Assembly (NCBI RefSeq): GCF_030505395.1
Contig: NZ_CP130044.1
Span: 2,589,001-2,653,000 of the forward strand
From: Asticcacaulis sp. ZE23SCel15
GTDB lineage: Bacteria; Pseudomonadota; Alphaproteobacteria; Caulobacterales; Caulobacteraceae
Direction of reading: 5' to 3'
Length of the DNA: 64,000 bases
How positions within the stretch are numbered: position 1 is the first letter of the stretch; each line of letters starts with the position of its first letter. The notes under the pieces were generated by a model. That model was not told the origin of the DNA, did no database searches, and worked only from the letters and a program-made list of their open reading frames with translations. The translations under genes were made by a program, and so were the position numbers. Positions 39,291-48,019 of this stretch are shown here, one piece after another.

Positions 39291-41090
39291 ATGCACATCT
39301 ATCGCTCACACACCTGCGGCGCCCTGCGCGCCACCGATGATCAGTCCGCGGTTCGCCTTTCGGGCTGGGTTCACCGCAAGCGCGATCATGGTGGCTTGCT
39401 GTTCATCGATTTGCGCGACCATTACGGCCTGACGCAGTTGGTGTTCGATCCGGCCACACCGGGCTTTGATAAGGTCGAGCGCGTCCGCGCCGAAAGCGTC
39501 ATTCGCATCGATGGCAAGGTCGTGAAGCGCACCTCAGATACCATCAATGCCAATCTGCCGACCGGCGAAGTCGAAGTGCAGGTGTCGTCGGTTGAAATCC
39601 TGAGTGAGGCTGCCGAACTGCCGCTGCCGGTCTTTGGTGAGCCGGAATATCCCGAAGAAATTCGTCTGAAAAACCGTTTCCTCGACCTGCGTCGTGAGAC
39701 CCTGCATAAGAATATTGTGCTGCGTTCGCGCGTGATCCAGTCGATCCGTAACCGCATGGTTGAGCAGGGCTTTCTTGAGTACCAGACCCCGATCCTGACG
39801 GCATCATCGCCCGAAGGGGCCCGCGATTTTCTGGTGCCGTCGCGCATGCATCCCGGCAAGTTCTACGCCCTGCCGCAAGCGCCGCAGCAGTTCAAGCAGT
39901 TGCTGATGGTGTCGGGCTTTGACCGCTATTTCCAGATTGCGCCGTGCTTCCGTGACGAAGACCTGCGCGCGGACCGGAGCCTTGAGTTCTACCAGCTCGA
40001 CGTCGAGATGAGCTTTGTGACGCAGGAAGACGTGTTCGCGGCGATTGAACCGCTGATGCACGGCCTGTTCACCGAGTTTGGCGAAGGTAAGCGCGTATCA
40101 AGCTATCCGTTCCAGCGCATTCCCTATCGTGAATCGATTGCCAAATATGGTTCCGATAAACCTGACCTGCGCAACCCGATTGAAATGCAGGATGTGTCCG
40201 AGCATTTCCGCGGGTCAGGCTTTAAGGTGTTTGCGTCGATCCTTGACGCCGATGTGAAAAACAAAGTCTGGGCGATTCCGGCCAAGACCGGCGGATCGCG
40301 CGCTTTCTGCGATCGCATGAATGGCTGGGCGCAGGGCGAAGGCCAAAAGGGTCTGGGTTACATCTTCTGGCGCACGCCGGAAGGGGCAACGGAGGGCATT
40401 GAGCCGTCAGGACCGGTGGCCAAGAACATTGGTGATGAGCGTACCGAAGCTTTGCGTGGCCAATTGGGGCTTGAGGCTGGCGATGCCGTGTTCTTTGTCG
40501 CCGGTAACCCGGACGAATTTTATAAGTTTGCGGGTCTGGCGCGTACCAAGGTCGGCACCGATCTGGGGCTTGTGGATGAGGATCAGTTCCGCTTTTGCTG
40601 GATCGTTGATTTCCCGATGTTTGAGTGGAATGACGACGAAAAGAAGGTCGATTTCTCGCATAACCCGTTCTCGATGCCGCAGGGGGAAATGGACGCGCTT
40701 CTCACCAAAGATCCGCTCGATATTCTGGCCTATCAGTACGACATCGTCTGCAACGGTTATGAACTTTGTTCTGGTGCTATCCGTAACCACAAGCAGGACA
40801 TCATGCTTAAGGCGTTTGAGATCGCGGGCTATGACGAAGCGTTTGTTGAGGCGCAGTTCGGCGGGATGCTCAATGCGTTCAAATACGGCGCGCCACCGCA
40901 CGGGGGTCTGGCCCCTGGGATCGACCGGATTGTGATGCTGCTGGCCGGTCAGACGGCGATCCGCGAAATCATTGCCTTCCCGCTGAACCAGCAGGGGCAG
41001 GACGTGATGATGTCGGCCCCTTCGGAAGCGCTTGATAAGCAGTTGAAGGAATTGTCGATCCGGACGGCGTTGCCGATCAAGGTCAGCTAA
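39291..41090 (+). CDS. aspS: Aspartyl-tRNA synthetase
   Basis: Charges tRNA-Asp. The 599 residues have an OB-fold anticodon-binding domain ([22 protein letters not shown]), class II motif 2 ([22 protein letters not shown]), the bacterial GAD insertion (residues ~290-430), and motif 3 ([13 protein letters not shown]). Alphaproteobacterial AspRS is often non-discriminating, also charging tRNA-Asn; that cannot be decided here. It ends at the second composite terminator. Confidence 0.97.
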
Positions 41091-41211: not shown

Positions 41212-41697
41212 TTAGCAGATTGGAATGCGAAGCCCGCGCGGCAATTGCGTTTCACGATCGCCACACGCGCTGTCAAGCTGGCGCTGGGTCAGGCCTTTGG
41301 CCTGCGACATCTCAGCACCGGAGAAGTTCACGCCCGACAAAGTGGCCCCGGCGAAATTGGCACCCTCAAGATATGCCCCCACAAAGGTCGCATTGGTCAG
41401 GTTGGCCTTAGCGAAACTGGCGTTAGAAAACAAAGCGCCAAAACCGTTCAGATCGCGCAGATCGCCACCCGCAAACGACGTGCGGTTAAATGACCCCAGG
41501 CTTAAGTCCGCCTGACGCAAACGCGCCCCGGCGAAGTTCTTGCCCTTAAGCTCACGGTTGCTGAAATCGGCCTGAAACAGGTTGCAGCCTGCGCACGATG
41601 CTCCGCTTTGGGCCCTCCCGATCTGACCGGCATTTTGTGCGGCGACGGGGGAAGCGAGTACGGCCATAACTGCCAATACCGGGAATAAGCGTTTCAT
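41212..41697 (-). CDS. Exported pentapeptide-repeat protein
   Basis: A 161-residue protein with a signal peptide (MKRLFPVLAVMAVLASPVAA) and about 18 pentapeptide repeats of the A(D/N)LXX type (residues ~40-135: LFQADFSNRELKGKNFAGAR, ANLTNATFVGAYLEGANFAG), which fold as a right-handed quadrilateral helix. Two cysteines at the N side of the solenoid (CAGC) could be a disulfide or metal site; another pair lies near the C terminus. Function unknown; it should be periplasmic. Start chosen by the signal peptide. Confidence 0.85.
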   Translation of the reverse strand: MKRLFPVLAVMAVLASPVAAQNAGQIGRAQSGASCAGCNLFQADFSNRELKGKNFAGARLRQADLSLGSFNRTSFAGGDLRDLNGFGALFSNASFAKANLTNATFVGAYLEGANFAGATLSGVNFSGAEMSQAKGLTQRQLDSACGDRETQLPRGLRIPIC

Positions 41698-41750
41698 CTT
41701 AAGACACCTCAATCTGTTTGGCTTTGTGTAAGCAAAACAGAGGCCGCAAA

Positions 41751-44531
41751 TCAACCGTCAGAGGGTAAATCCATGCCGATATCATCATTTGACGCTTTTT
41801 TGGCGAAGGGGATGACCACCAGATTGTCGGTATTGGCCCCGCGCGCAAAACCTTTGGATATCAACTGGGAAGCGCGAATACCTTCGGAGTTGTTGGCCTG
41901 CTCGCCGTCACCCAGACCATCGGCATTGAGCGCATCCGGGTCAGCATTGGCCAAGTCCGTGCGGTCAAGGTACGAAATGGCCAGTTCCCGGAACAGATAA
42001 TCCAGAATTGACGTCGATGATTTGATGGAGTCATTGCCGCTGACTGGCCCTGCCGGTTCAAAGCGGGTGAACACGAACGCATCGACAAATTCATCGAGCG
42101 GCACGCCGTACTGAAGGCCGATGGATACGGCGATGGCGAAATTATTCATCATCGACCGGAAGGCGGCCCCTTCCTTGTGCATGTCGATGAAGATTTCTCC
42201 GACGCTGCCATCGTCATATTCGCCGGTGTGTAAATAGACCTTATGGCCGCCGACCGAAGCTTTCTGGATGTAGCCTTTGCGGCGATCCGGCAGTTTCTGG
42301 CGGGAGCGGTCGCGCTCAATGATCTTTTCTACTACCTTTGCCTGCGCAGGTTCCGGCTGCGGGCGGGCCTCAAGCAGGTTGCGCTTAGGGGCATCCTCAA
42401 TGACCGGAATATCGAGGTGGAAATCATCCGGCGGCGTGGTCGGTTGCAGGCTTATGGCGCGCAAATCCATATTCGCCGCCATCGACAACAGTTTAAGGCT
42501 GTCGGGCAGGTTCTGGCCAAACGGAATATGGATGCGTGCGGCCGATGGCGCGCTTGAGAAACTCTCAAGCTTTTGTCGCATCAATAACCGCGCTTTTAAA
42601 CCGGGGGCGGCAAAGATAGCGCGCTGGTCTTCGGTCAGGCCCTCAAAGTCGGCTAATGTTTGGTGACCAAAGATGAAGGCTTCAGCTTCGGCGATTTGCG
42701 CCGCGGTAAAGCCCATAACGGTCAACAGGTTATAGTCAGGACTTGAGATATCTTCATCGCTGACACCCCAGATGTCGCGCACGAAATCCTTATCGATGGT
42801 GTTGAAAACGTCGGTCAGGTTGCGGGCGGTCAAAAGTGCTGACTTAAGCCGCCCAATTTCAAAATCGGTCAAACCCCGCGCCTTGAGTTGCGGTGGCGAC
42901 AGATAGGGGGCCTCAAACAGGGAGCGTGCCCCCAAGACATGGCGGCGCGCATCGGCCAATGACGCACCCACCCGGATCAGACCCGCGATGGTGGCCTCAG
43001 ACAAGGTCTCAATAATCTCACCGTCTTCGGTTTCCAGCACCGAGGTCAGGCCAGACACCGGCTGATCATGCAGACTAACGCCAAGTCGCAACGTCAGTTC
43101 CGGATCGTCAAACAGGGCTGTGGTCTGGGCATGGCGAAGGCCCGATTTTTTGGCCGTTTTTAAGGCGTCCTGAATGAGTGTCAGGCTGTGGGCCTTGAGG
43201 TCGGCGTGACCTTTCAGGCTGGAAATGCGATAAATTTGCTGCGACAGGCTATGTAAAATCTGGTCCTTATCCGACGCAAATGCCCTATAGGCCCCGTGAG
43301 ATTTGGCCAGTTGCGCCGAGGTATGAAGGCTTTGGGCCTGCATGGCCGCCATTAGCCCCGCGGCAAAATCAAGCCCGTCCGCGTCTGCGGGATTGAGGTT
43401 CAGGGCCATCAGTAACTCGGATACTCCACCGATTGTCAGGGCGATCGGGCGATCATAGTATCGTCTCAGGGCATGGTTCTCAGTCGCACTGAAAGCTGTG
43501 GCGGTCTCGATATCAAGCGCTAAGGTCCACAATGCCACGCACTGGCTAAAGGCGGTGGCGTCAAAGCCTTTGTCGGCATCATAAAACCCGAACATATTAA
43601 TGGCTGCCTTGGGCGCATATCCTTGACCATACAGCGCTTGGGCGTCCAACGGATTAAAGGCCAGATAAAGCTGCCCGGTTTCCTGAGCGACCTGCGCCGC
43701 TAGCCGCGCGGACGGATCACCGACTGCGATCAGGGCGCGTGAAGCCAGAGCGATTTTGGGTTCATGCGGGGCAGAATTAGCGTCGACGGTCTGCTGCGAC
43801 CATGGCGGCAAAACCGCATCGGTGGCGGCATTTTGCGCGGATTGAATGGTCAATGAAATCAGGTGGTCGCTGGCGCCCAGTTTACGGGCGGTCATGGCGG
43901 CGCGGGCCAGAGCCGGATTATGGCGCAGGCTTGTGCGGTGATCACCTTCGGCGCGGGCGATAGCGGTGGTAATCTCGTTCAGCGCGTCGTGTAACTGGGT
44001 GCGGGTGGTTCTGGAAATCTGGTCTGAGCGATAGGCGATCAGAAACTGACGCAAATCGCGGTCGCAGGCCGGATCATCAAGTTGCCAGAACTTAGTCTCA
44101 GGCGGTTCCGGCACGCGATCTCCGGCCAATGGGTGGATACGATGACCGCTTTTCAGGGATAAGGCTGGCGCGGCATAGCCGAGCAGGATGCTGGCGCGCA
44201 ATTCTCGCAGGAAATGAGCGGCACTGTGGGAAACCTCGAAATAGCCGAGCGCATAGCCCCAGGCGGTCACGCGCTGCGCATAACGCTCAACTGCACCGCC
44301 CAAAGCCAGATCGAATGGATCGTCATGGACAATGCGGTGGTCGATATCGGGGGCCAGTTGCGGCTGATCTTCGGGCAGGGTATCGGCCCAGTCCAGCCAC
44401 GCCTCCAGGCGGGCGTTTGACCAGTCGCGCGGGGCCAAAACCTCATCATAACCGCCGGGTCGTTCGATAAAGCGGTCTTCGAGACTGATGTCATAGATCA
44501 GGCGGTTGGAAAAATCCGACTCTAAGCGCAT
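41751..44531 (-). CDS. NrdJ-like protein lacking catalytic cysteines (TSCPD domain)
   Basis: 926 residues from [11 protein letters not shown]. The C-terminal third is plainly that of class II (B12-dependent) ribonucleotide reductase: [40 protein letters not shown] and [19 protein letters not shown] (TSCPD region, ~790-880). Upstream segments can be aligned with NrdJ by eye ([34 protein letters not shown]), but only two cysteines remain in the whole protein and neither lies in an active-site motif; the finger-loop cysteine, the redox pair and the C-terminal CxxC tail are missing. It is also shorter than NrdJ (~1200). It should not reduce nucleotides. Role unknown; regulatory or structural paralogue is possible. 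Confidence 0.8.
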
Positions 44532-44658: not shown

Positions 44659-44805
44659 TTGCGTCCACCGGCGCGATATGAGGAAATTTCAGGGACTGTG
44701 GCTTTACCTCGGCATCTGTGGTCACTATAGTGACTGCAAGTTTTTAATGATCTGCCGGGTCTGTGATTTACGGGTGTGAATGGGGATTTTCGGATCAGTT
44801 ACAGG

Positions 44806-45207
44806 ATGTTTGCCGTGTTAGCTAATATGTTTACCTGGTGGAGCAGTGCCACGATAGGAACCTTATGGACAATTGGCCGTCTGGGCAAATTTGTCGGTTC
44901 CGATGAGTTCGGCAACAAATACTACGAAGCCCGCGACACCAAGGAAAGCTATGGCGACAAAAAGCGCCGGTTCGTGATCTACAAAGGCTATGCCGATGCC
45001 TCAAAGATCCCACCTGATTGGCACGGCTGGATGCACTATGTCTATGATACGCCGCCGTCCGATACGCCGCTACCGCGCAAAAGCTGGGAACAGCCGCACC
45101 TGCCGAACATGAGCGGCACACCTTTGGCGCAATACCCGAAGGGCTCGCTCAACGCGCAGACCGAACGTCAAAAATCGACCGGCGATTACGAAGCCTGGAA
45201 ACCGTAG
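44806..45207 (+). CDS. NDUFA12-like complex I accessory subunit
   Basis: A 133-residue homologue of the B17.2/NDUFA12 subunit of NADH:ubiquinone oxidoreductase, found in alphaproteobacteria and mitochondria. Motifs: MFTWWSSATIGTLW, GNKYYEARD, RRFVIYKGYADASKIPPDWH, GWMHYVYD, and the C-terminal NMSGTPLAQYPKGSL. The start at 44806 (MFAVLANMF, with ACAGG before it) is preferred to an in-frame GTG at 44776; 44827 is also possible. Followed 12 bp later by a DUF2155 gene. Confidence 0.9.
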   Translation: MFAVLANMFTWWSSATIGTLWTIGRLGKFVGSDEFGNKYYEARDTKESYGDKKRRFVIYKGYADASKIPPDWHGWMHYVYDTPPSDTPLPRKSWEQPHLPNMSGTPLAQYPKGSLNAQTERQKSTGDYEAWKP

Positions 45208-45219
45208 GCGCAGAGCGAC

Positions 45220-45984
45220 ATGGCCCATAAACCCAAAACCGGTAAGTTGAAAACAAGGCTCCTGTGGGGGCTTGTGCCGGTTATGGCTGTGGCAGGCGTG
45301 GCGATTGCCCAGATCCCGCCCGATGAAGAACCGCCCGCACGTCAGGGGCGCTATGTCGATTCCCAGAACTACGACCCTGAGCCCTATTACGTCGATGGGG
45401 TTGAGTTTAAGCCCTATGTCCCGGAAGGCGCGCGCAAGGCGAGCAACCGCACAGACACCCGACCGGTAGCCCCGCAAGCACCACCGGCGACGCGCAGCAT
45501 CGCCAGCGGTCAACCTGTGCCTGGGGCCGCTGATGCTGTTGCACCGGCGCCGGTGGCCGCAGCACCGGCCTTGAAAGGGGCCGTTGGGGACGGGGTGCAG
45601 GCGTCTGAGGCCGTCGAAGTGCCCAAGGTTCCGGCCAAGCGTCAGCGTCATGGTGCGGCTATCATACAGGCGCTGGATAAGGTCACGGCGGAGACCGTGC
45701 GCTTTGAAGCCCAGGTCGGCAAGCCTGTGCGCTATAAGGGCCTGATCTATACCGTCAAAGCGTGTGAGACGACCACGGATGAAGAGGCGCAATCAGATAT
45801 CATCGCCTATATGGAAGTCCAATCCTCGCCGCAGATCACCGAAACCACCAAGATCATGCCTAAGCCCAAGTCGATTTTTCGCGGCTGGACCTATGCGTCA
45901 TCGCCGGGTCTAAATGGTCTTCAGCACCCGGTTTATGATGCCTGGGTGATTTCGTGCCGCGCGCCCTTAGTCCGTAAATCCTAA
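45220..45984 (+). CDS. DUF2155 family exported protein
   Basis: 254 residues with an N-terminal membrane/signal segment (LLWGLVPVMAVAGVAIAQ), a long proline/alanine-rich low-complexity middle (~residues 75-150), and the C-terminal DUF2155 domain: VRYKGLIYTVKACETT, YMEVQSSPQ, and IFRGWTYASSPGLNGLQHPVYDAWVISC. The domain's two cysteines (KAC and SC) are positioned to form a disulfide. Function is unknown, but its linkage to NDUFA12 and aat is conserved in alphaproteobacteria. Its end overlaps aat by 18 bp on the other strand. Confidence 0.85.
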   Translation: MAHKPKTGKLKTRLLWGLVPVMAVAGVAIAQIPPDEEPPARQGRYVDSQNYDPEPYYVDGVEFKPYVPEGARKASNRTDTRPVAPQAPPATRSIASGQPVPGAADAVAPAPVAAAPALKGAVGDGVQASEAVEVPKVPAKRQRHGAAIIQALDKVTAETVRFEAQVGKPVRYKGLIYTVKACETTTDEEAQSDIIAYMEVQSSPQITETTKIMPKPKSIFRGWTYASSPGLNGLQHPVYDAWVISCRAPLVRKS

Positions 45985-46617
45985 AACTTTCAGCGCAGTT
46001 CTGCCGTCAGTGCGCGCGGGCAAATCATAAAAATCGGCTTCAAGGGTCAGAGCTTCTTTCAGACGCTCATGATACTCTGCCCGATCAATTTCCTCTGTGC
46101 CGAACTGTTTCAGGTGATCGGTCTGAAACTGGCAATCCAGCAGGCTGTAACCGCCGCTTTTTAGCCGGGCCACCAGATGGACGAGGGCGATTTTCGACGC
46201 ATCCGTGGCGCGTGACACCATGCTTTCACCAAAGAAAGCGCCCCCTATGGCCACACCATAAAGCCCGCCGACCAGCCGGTTGTCATGCCAGACCTCAATA
46301 CTGTGAGCCAGACCACGCGCGAAAAGGGCCTGATAAAGGCTCTGGATCGGGTGGCTGATCCAGGTGTTGGGCCGATCCGAAGCGCTTTCGGCGCATAGCT
46401 CAATGACCTGACTGAAGGCGGTGTTGACGCGTACCTCAAATGAAGTGGTGCGCACCTTGCGCCGTAAGCGCGATGGGATATGGAAGCCATCAAGCGGCAA
46501 TATTCCGCGCTTGGGCGGATCAACCAGAAACAGATAGTCGTCATCCCGCGCATCCGACATGGGGAATATGCCGTTGCGATAGCTGTCGATCAGGTCGTCA
46601 AGGGTGAAGTCGGCCAC
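45967..46617 (-). CDS. aat: Leucyl/phenylalanyl-tRNA--protein transferase
   Basis: Adds Leu or Phe to N-terminal Arg/Lys of proteins, marking them for ClpAP. The 216 residues contain YRNGIFPMSD, RGILPLDGFHIPSRLRR, WISHPIQSLYQALFARGLAHS, and the core GGLYGVAIGGAFFGESMVSR followed by LLDCQFQTDHLKQFG. Length is normal. It converges on the DUF2155 gene and follows accC by 49 bp on the same strand. Confidence 0.95.
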   Translation of the reverse strand: MADFTLDDLIDSYRNGIFPMSDARDDDYLFLVDPPKRGILPLDGFHIPSRLRRKVRTTSFEVRVNTAFSQVIELCAESASDRPNTWISHPIQSLYQALFARGLAHSIEVWHDNRLVGGLYGVAIGGAFFGESMVSRATDASKIALVHLVARLKSGGYSLLDCQFQTDHLKQFGTEEIDRAEYHERLKEALTLEADFYDLPARTDGRTALKVLGFTD

Positions 46618-46666: not shown

Positions 46667-48019
46667 TTACGCCCCTGCTTCCTGAGCCTTGATCCAGTTT
46701 TCCAGCCAGTGAATGTTGTAGTCACCGCTCTGGATGTCTTTTTCGTTCAACAGATCAACAAACAACGGGATGGTGGTGTCGATACCGGCCACTACGATTT
46801 CCGACAGGGCGCGCTTGAGGCGGGCCAGAGCTTCGAGGCGGTCGCGGCCATGCACGATCAGCTTACCCACCATCGAGTTGTAATAGGGCGGGATCGCATA
46901 GCCATTATAGATAGCCGAATCCATACGCACACCTAAGCCGCCGGGCGCATGATAATCGGTGATCGTGCCGGGTGAGGGCACAAAGGTGCGGGCGTTTTCA
47001 GCATTGACGCGCACTTCGATCGAGTGGCCTTTGATGGTGATGTCGTCCTGCGTGAACGACAACGGCAAACCCGCCGCGATGCGGATCTGTTCACGCACCA
47101 GATCAACGCCGGTGACAAACTCAGTCACCGGATGCTCGACCTGAAGGCGGGTGTTCATCTCGATAAAGAAGAACTCGCCGTCCTCATACAGGAACTCAAT
47201 CGTGCCAACGCCGAGATAGCCGATCTTACGGATGGCATCGACGACGACCTTACCGATCTTGTCACGGGCGGCATCGTCAATTGCGGGCGAGGGCGCTTCT
47301 TCGAGCACCTTCTGGTGGCGGCGTTGCAGAGAGCAATCACGCTCGCCCAGATGCACGACATTACCGTGACTGTCGGCGATGACCTGAATTTCGATGTGAC
47401 GCGGCTTCTGGAGGTAGCGCTCCATATAGACCGTGCCATCGCCAAAGGCGGCAGCGGCTTCGGATTGCGCGCTCATGACCGCTTCGGACAGGGATTCTCG
47501 GTCCTTGGCGACTTTCATGCCACGACCACCACCACCGGCGGCAGCCTTGATGATCAGCGGGAAGCCGATGTGTTCGGCGGCCGCCAGAGCTTCCTCGACC
47601 GTGGCGACGCCACCATCGGAGCCCGGAACGACGGGGATGCCGGAATCCTTTGAGGCTTGCTTGGCGGTGATCTTATCGCCCATCAGGCGGATGTGCTCAG
47701 GCTTCGGGCCAATAAAGGTCATGCCGTGGGCGCCGACGATTTCGGCAAAACGGGCATTTTCCGACAAAAAGCCATAGCCCGGATGGATCGCCTGTGCGCC
47801 GGTGATTTCGGCAGCCGCAATGATCGACGGGATATTCAGATAGCTTTTGGACGCAGCGGGCGGACCGATGCAAACGCTTTCGTCGGCCAGATGAACATGC
47901 ATGGCATGGCGATCGGCTTCACTGTGCACGGCGACGGTCGCAATGCCCATTTCCTTACACGCACGAATGACGCGAAGAGCGATTTCGCCACGATTGGCAA
48001 TGAGAATCTTATCAAACAT
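46667..48019 (-). CDS. accC: Biotin carboxylase subunit of acetyl-CoA carboxylase
   Basis: ATP-dependent carboxylation of biotin on AccB, the first step of fatty-acid synthesis. The 450 residues begin [20 protein letters not shown] and include the glycine-rich ATP loop [31 protein letters not shown] and [16 protein letters not shown]. It starts 7 bp after accB. Confidence 0.97.

Follow-up and report, generated by a model that had tools for sequence, protein, structure and literature searches.

A predicted pseudoenzyme at the native nrdJ locus of Asticcacaulis and a probable catalysis-independent function of the class II ribonucleotide reductase TSCPD module

Inactive homologues of ribonucleotide reductase R1 occur in herpesviruses, where they have other roles; they are likewise pseudoenzymes, but are viral, of class I ancestry and directed at an unrelated target. 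Among class II reductases, the alphaproteobacterial NrdJ (NF005736/PRK07562; R. sphaeroides structures 7b9p and 7b9q) is a protein of about 1220 residues. In the split class II enzyme of P. aeruginosa, as described in passages of PMC4520616, the class II C-terminal part is a separate polypeptide, NrdJb, which works by thiol-disulphide exchange on NrdJa. A redox pair among the cysteines of the C-terminal finger of NrdJ is proposed in passages of Loderer et al. 2017 (PMC5704485), and a 2022 survey (PMC9669993, from passages) states that the reductase literature has reported no role for the TSCPD/IscU-like domain found in class II enzymes. Among titles, openings of abstracts and text passages, with few subscription papers included, we found no description of a catalytically dead NrdJ family or of TSCPD modules standing alone. 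The gene described here resembles alphaproteobacterial NrdJ in its locus, its domain order and its TSCPD sequence, and differs from it in length (926 residues) and in lacking the catalytic and redox cysteines, the specificity loops and the zinc/redox tail. A predicted pseudoenzyme of the class II reductase, together with what may be a hidden second function of its TSCPD module, is the new part.

On the minus strand of the window (a stretch of 64,000 nucleotides from Asticcacaulis sp. ZE23SCel15), the gene occupies 41751..44531, stop codon included; its product is referred to as pseudo-NrdJ. The frame opens with an ATG at 44531, closes with a stop codon at 41751-41753, and is free of internal stops and frameshifts; an alternative GTG start 57 bases upstream would give 945 residues. 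An earlier note on this DNA had placed the gene at the same positions without its strand, here found to be minus, and had described a frame intact over 2.8 kb, two cysteines outside motifs and no CxxC tail. The frame is indeed unbroken, the only cysteines are C156 and C331, neither within a motif, and the CxxC tail is absent.

The ancestry of the protein in NrdJ, which the earlier note had seen most clearly at the C-terminus, extends past that domain, since PF02867, NF005736 and 7b9p all align upstream of TSCPD. In the profile search that the note had proposed, two Pfam families exceeded their curated cut-offs: the reductase barrel PF02867 (E 1e-12), with partial coverage (model positions 230-386 of 523 only), and the TSCPD family PF12637 (residues 758-851, E 5e-10, 39.9 bits against a cut-off of 22.8). 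The barrel match delimits the Pfam-detectable part of the eroded barrel (residues 309-473; 43113..43607, minus strand), where AlphaFold2 pLDDT is 95-98 per ten-residue block. The NCBIfam model of alphaproteobacterial NrdJ, NF005736, matched residues 308-910 with 385.6 bits, below its cut-off of 1737, and among solved structures R. sphaeroides NrdJ 7b9p is closest in sequence (residues 284-427 and 454-647, E 4e-17). The AlphaFold2 model of the whole protein has a mean pLDDT of 86, with values of 86-98 per ten-residue block over residues 261-700, mostly 65-88 in the module, and below 50 over residues 868-926. With this model, Foldseek returned 7b9p first (E 1e-24, TM 0.53), followed by 7b9q and T. 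maritima NrdJ. The predicted structure, another check that the note had named, thus suggests that the NrdJ-type barrel fold is partly kept.

Catalytic positions were compared in an alignment of 60 non-redundant degenerate relatives, the window gene included, with 26 true NrdJ. Removal of near-duplicates had reduced 164 rows to 107, of which 46 carry NPCSE (47 if L140 with its SPCSE variant is counted); the 60 degenerate rows include partial contigs. Of the 47 true NrdJ rows, 26 were used for the residue counts. We take C210 and C498 of the reference (ref) to be the active-site redox pair of NrdJ, and the dNTP specificity loops presumably lie in the stretch ref 190-330. The thiyl-radical cysteine is kept in none of the 60 degenerate relatives (0/60), all of which lack an NPCSE-like motif anywhere; in the window protein, NPCSE of the finger loop reads NPLDA (residues 293-297; 43641..43655, minus strand). 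Ref C210, the first redox cysteine, falls in a gap stretch in 60/60, the window protein included, and ref C498, 11 residues past the radical cysteine, is alanine in the window protein and cysteine in 1/60. The earlier note's claim that the catalytic cysteines are gone is therefore correct: aligned with true NrdJ, the protein does not have them.

The deletion that removed C210 lies in the N-terminal part of the protein (residues 1-258; 43758..44531, minus strand), which corresponds to the NrdJ N-terminal region in the alignment with 26 true NrdJ. The span ref 190-330 has a median of 141 residues in true NrdJ, against 49 in the window protein and a median of 40 in the 60 relatives, and the specificity-loop stretch GSGTGTNFSSLR...SGGTTRRAAKM is missing from the window protein. 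The earlier note had offered nucleotide sensing as one possible role; with this stretch shortened and the loops gone, sensing at the NrdJ specificity site is unlikely and was rejected.

At the C-terminus, 46/60 degenerate relatives keep all four cysteines predicted to bind zinc in the tail, a likeness to the C-terminal zinc finger of S. nassauensis NrdJd as given in passages of PMC5704485, but the redox pair of that finger is lost in 60/60. The other 14 lack the finger: L119, L054 (cut off by the end of its contig) and all 12 members of the window's genus in the alignment. Those 12, the window protein among them, have no C-terminal redox tail at all. With the redox cysteines lost, thiol exchange of the kind carried out by P. 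aeruginosa NrdJb cannot be the retained function here; nor did the window's own genome yield an NrdJa-like partner.

Selection on the gene was assessed with the Nei-Gojobori method. Compared with its three closest relatives, at dS 0.38-0.66, the gene has an omega of 0.057-0.063 as a whole, 0.04-0.07 for the barrel, which is also low, and 0.008-0.018 for the module; four other close pairs gave 0.06-0.10 for the whole and 0-0.013 for the module. Comparison with eight further members of the genus, at which distance synonymous sites are nearly saturated, gave a dN of 0.07-0.08 for the module and 0.37-0.55 for the N-terminal, barrel and middle parts. The gene is thus under strong purifying selection (omega about 0.06), as the earlier note had supposed when it suggested a dN/dS check. 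From its lost catalytic residues and the purifying selection on it, the window protein is a predicted pseudoenzyme, and would be inactive.

What that note missed is that the strongest constraint falls on the C-terminal TSCPD module (residues 741-862; 41946..42311, minus strand). Residues invariant in true NrdJ are kept at 96% in ref 950-999, 98% in ref 1000-1049 and 93% in ref 1050-1099; elsewhere the values are 1-62% per earlier 50-residue bin, 78% in ref 1100-1149 and 36% in the tail. Over 120 module rows (47 true NrdJ, 60 degenerate, 8 stand-alone, 4 degenerate from other families, and the query again, so that the window protein occurs twice, also as L004), 54 positions are at least 97% conserved, and cysteine is found at none of them. 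The module of the window protein contains no cysteine at all, and is 72-83% identical to those of the 47 true NrdJ. Beyond it lies a short C-terminal motif (residues 891-905; 41817..41861, minus strand) with invariant S892, G894 and R897 in alignment A1, which is also kept in relatives where the zinc finger comes after the motif.

The surroundings of the gene identify the locus. With genes named from their Pfam domains, one side carries a divergent neighbour encoding the complex I accessory subunit NDUFA12 (44776..45207, plus strand; PF05071, E 2e-25), a DUF2155 protein gene (45220..45984, plus; PF09923), aat for leucyl/phenylalanyl-tRNA-protein transferase (45967..46617, minus; PF03588) and accC for biotin carboxylase (46667..48019, minus; PF00289, PF02785, PF02786). 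Downstream are a pentapeptide-repeat protein gene (41212..41754, minus; PF00805) and aspS, an aspartyl-tRNA synthetase gene by its domains (39291..41090, plus; PF00152, PF01336, GAD domain). In the 44 degenerate loci that span at least 7 kb, the one side has NDUFA12 in 42, the DUF2155 gene in 42, aat in 40 and accC in 37, and the other side the pentapeptide gene (40) and aspS (36). The flanks of many of the 64 true NrdJ loci are short, and the counts there are 18 for NDUFA12, 16 for DUF2155, 12 for aat and 9 for accC, and in two (L139 and L141) a true NrdJ is flanked on both sides by the whole marker block.

Searches of the window's own genome found no second NrdJ. Given this and the synteny with true NrdJ loci, we rejected the earlier reading of the gene as a paralogue; these comparisons indicate that pseudo-NrdJ is the in-place orthologue of the alphaproteobacterial class II NrdJ of about 1220 residues, at the native nrdJ locus. 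Without a second NrdJ there is also no true NrdJ to regulate, and that proposed role falls away. The working ribonucleotide reductase of this genome is class I NrdA plus NrdB: NrdA has the finger-loop cysteine (NLCAE) and a CxxC tail, and NrdB is present too. The nrdB gene (G000:C1:568634-569446, plus strand) and the nrdA gene (588198-589622, minus strand) are about 19 kb apart on opposite strands and share no operon.

By the tallies of the search program, 188 of 199 Caulobacteraceae genomes sampled match the window protein and none reaches the NF005736 cut-off; the named control C. vibrioides is below the NrdJ cut-off as well. Across the order, 40 of 200 genomes reach this cut-off, and 9 more have E = 0 yet stay below it; across the class, 237 of 387 reach it, again by the program's tallies. 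Named records with the degenerate form, among the matches listed, belong to Caulobacter, Phenylobacterium, Brevundimonas and Asticcacaulis; one relative search comprised the best 80 of at least 594 relatives. In C. crescentus, passages of PMC5869019 give CCNA_01966 as a vitamin B12-dependent ribonucleotide reductase, and a B12-pathway figure in a 2019 study (PMC6538847, from passages of that paper) labels it NrdJ. Because 188 of the 199 family genomes match the window protein and 0/199 reach the NrdJ cut-off, we infer that CCNA_01966 is a pseudoenzyme of the same type, which by this inference corrects the published NrdJ reading in a model bacterium. The degenerate gene is split over two frames in one genome (G011; L161/L170), and so is an NrdJ gene in another (G256; L175/L176); either may reflect a sequencing error or a real break.

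The module also occurs on its own, in genes that can be compared with P. aeruginosa NrdJb as a separate C-terminal polypeptide. Stand-alone frames of 277-301 residues were found in nine sampled genomes of two families outside the order, f87 and f12. The first of these families, with small AT-rich genomes, is by size and composition probably SAR11. NDUFA12 and accC adjoin the module at all eight loci fetched (five of f87, L207-L211; three of f12, L212-L214), with aspS on the other side in 5/5 from f87 and aat near in 3/3 from f12. GC content at six f87/f12 loci is 26-30%, and f87 genomes with the stand-alone module measure 1.0-1.5 Mb. The order to which f87 belongs has matches in 143 of 148 genomes: 118/123 of f87 itself, with frames of 269-307 residues, and 25 from family f158, one of them a fragment and the other 24 frames of 1196-1218 residues. 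The f12 modules retain four C-terminal cysteines of zinc type. An NrdA-like match is listed in eight of the nine sampled genomes with a stand-alone module, the exception being G690 (93% complete).

Conversely, one genome (G356) carries an NrdJ of 902 residues (L134/L177, C1:1106007-1108709) with barrel, class II N-domain, NPCSE (SNPCSEYMF) and redox tail, and no module match was found anywhere in it. Its NDUFA12 gene lies about 62 kb from NrdJ, so that the locus is broken up. Degenerate NrdJ with a module occurs in families f37, f134, f142 and f152 as well, and f26 has one whose module has diverged further (46-52% identity). The module is missing from nine degenerate frames of 524-1001 residues (L181-L183, L190, L191, L193 and L197-L199, from f92, f102, f107 and f155), save for a weak partial match in L193 (37% over 55 residues); NDUFA12 adjoins such barrels in all six loci fetched. 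Because these four families keep the barrel without the module, a degenerate barrel may have a value of its own. Genomes of f92 and f155 have a further reductase-like match at another place, with frames of 787-797 residues.

Some lineages have lost the gene outright. Of 27 doubtful genomes selected for a search, 21 gave no module match, including 7/7 of g31, 2/2 of g17 and three of g3. At loci of these three groups (L246-L255, L258, L259), no NrdJ-like match separates NDUFA12 from the pentapeptide gene; the two follow each other within 168-255 bases in g3 and g17, and in g31 the spacing is about 0.5-0.6 kb in six loci, the seventh having an unrelated frame in between. Hits of the L144 query near NDUFA12 were discounted as false, its open frame running through antisense NDUFA12. 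Pseudo-nrdJ is therefore dispensable in some lineages (g31, g17 and part of g3). In a set of 21 genomes selected because they lack the module, 18 keep NDUFA12, and NrdR is kept in 30/30 genomes, of which 15 are without the module; since neither vanishes with the module, their profiles point to no partner, and both were set aside as co-lost candidates.

Taken together, these data lead us to regard it as probable that the gene is the native nrdJ after loss of ribonucleotide reduction, kept for a catalysis-independent TSCPD function as old as alphaproteobacterial NrdJ itself. With class I NrdAB making the deoxyribonucleotides, the old class II enzyme would have lost its radical cysteine, redox cysteines, specificity loops and redox tail, its barrel would have eroded, and the gene would have been kept for what the C-terminal module does. 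That the module has such a function, though some lineages lost it, is probable because it survives without the barrel and because catalytic NrdJ exists without it. Since the module has no cysteine and the redox pair of the tail is lost, it may be a docking surface for a conserved partner and not a redox or metal centre, and the eroded barrel could then serve as carrier and oligomerisation scaffold. We would guess that the partner belongs to dNTP supply or replication, where the module sat while the enzyme worked. In its general form, towards which we lean, alphaproteobacterial NrdJ would be bifunctional, with a cysteine-free TSCPD module whose undescribed catalysis-independent function was often all that was kept once B12-dependent reduction had been abandoned: as pseudo-NrdJ in Caulobacterales, and as a stand-alone gene of 269-307 residues in f87. 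Nature would here have separated the TSCPD/IscU-like domain from catalysis, which offers a handle on it: its function could be studied in a strain free of interference from the domain's own reductase activity.

A specific form of this explanation, that the module or the eroded barrel binds NrdA/NrdB (or their mRNA or repressor) and tunes dNTP supply as a regulator of class I, strikes us as possible but doubtful. The ancestry in dNTP synthesis fits it, and class I is present both in the window's genome and, as an NrdA-like match, in 8/9 genomes with a stand-alone module; its presence gives no independent support, however, as any genome with a dead class II enzyme should have class I. Genomes without the gene also keep an NrdA-like match (among the matches listed) and NrdR, and some genomes, again among the matches listed, have full-length NrdJ only (with modules not aligned apart) and no NrdA-like match, so that class I cannot be the sole partner of the module. 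It is unlikely, in turn, that the barrel is the business end, as a pseudo-reductase scaffold or decoy: the low barrel omega, the confident predicted model and the nine module-less frames, one with a weak partial match, would suit it, but few NrdJ-invariant residues are kept in the barrel, dN is several-fold higher outside the module than within it (0.37-0.55 against 0.07-0.08), and the stand-alone forms have no barrel at all.

The neighbourhood might suggest a role in complex I or iron-sulphur biogenesis, for a protein of IscU-like fold encoded beside NDUFA12; such a fold is reported for class II C-termini in passages of PMC9669993, IscU/SufU chains recur among the weak Foldseek matches of the module, and NDUFA12 is the divergent neighbour even in distant families. 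This adjacency is weak evidence because the whole gene block is conserved, and NDUFA12 stays where the module is lost (18/21). In the Foldseek search with the module no match to an IscU fold was significant (all E above 0.1; best IscU/SufU E 0.21), and a module without cysteines is also without cluster-ligand cysteines, which makes this role quite improbable. That the gene is a functionless vestige in slow decay is harder still to credit. The erosion of the barrel, the losses in some genera and the split G011 copy would accord with decay, but an omega of about 0.06, and of 0.008-0.018 in the module, at dS 0.38-0.66 would not, nor would matches in 188/199 family genomes and the persistence of stand-alone frames in genomes of 1.0-1.5 Mb. 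Least credible of all is continued catalysis by an unusual route, for which the B12-dependent annotation and NrdJ label of the C. crescentus gene might be cited, in the face of absent radical and redox cysteines and missing specificity loops.

How many times the degenerate form arose within the order was considered in three trees. The neighbour-gene tree (51 loci) needs four changes, three of them forced by starred branches. The 55 degenerate sequences from the order group together in the full-length gene tree, possibly as an artefact of long branches; this tree has 106 rows, after exclusion of the duplicated query, 8 stand-alone modules and 5 degenerate rows that are partial. Two changes are required by the module tree (119 rows), which does not reject a single clade (AU p 0.454). 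The losses in other orders look separate, with weak support. The module was also seen in two phage records, KY940711 (H17; 68% identity), which is annotated as a class II ribonucleotide reductase, and LR745208 (H18; 61% identity).
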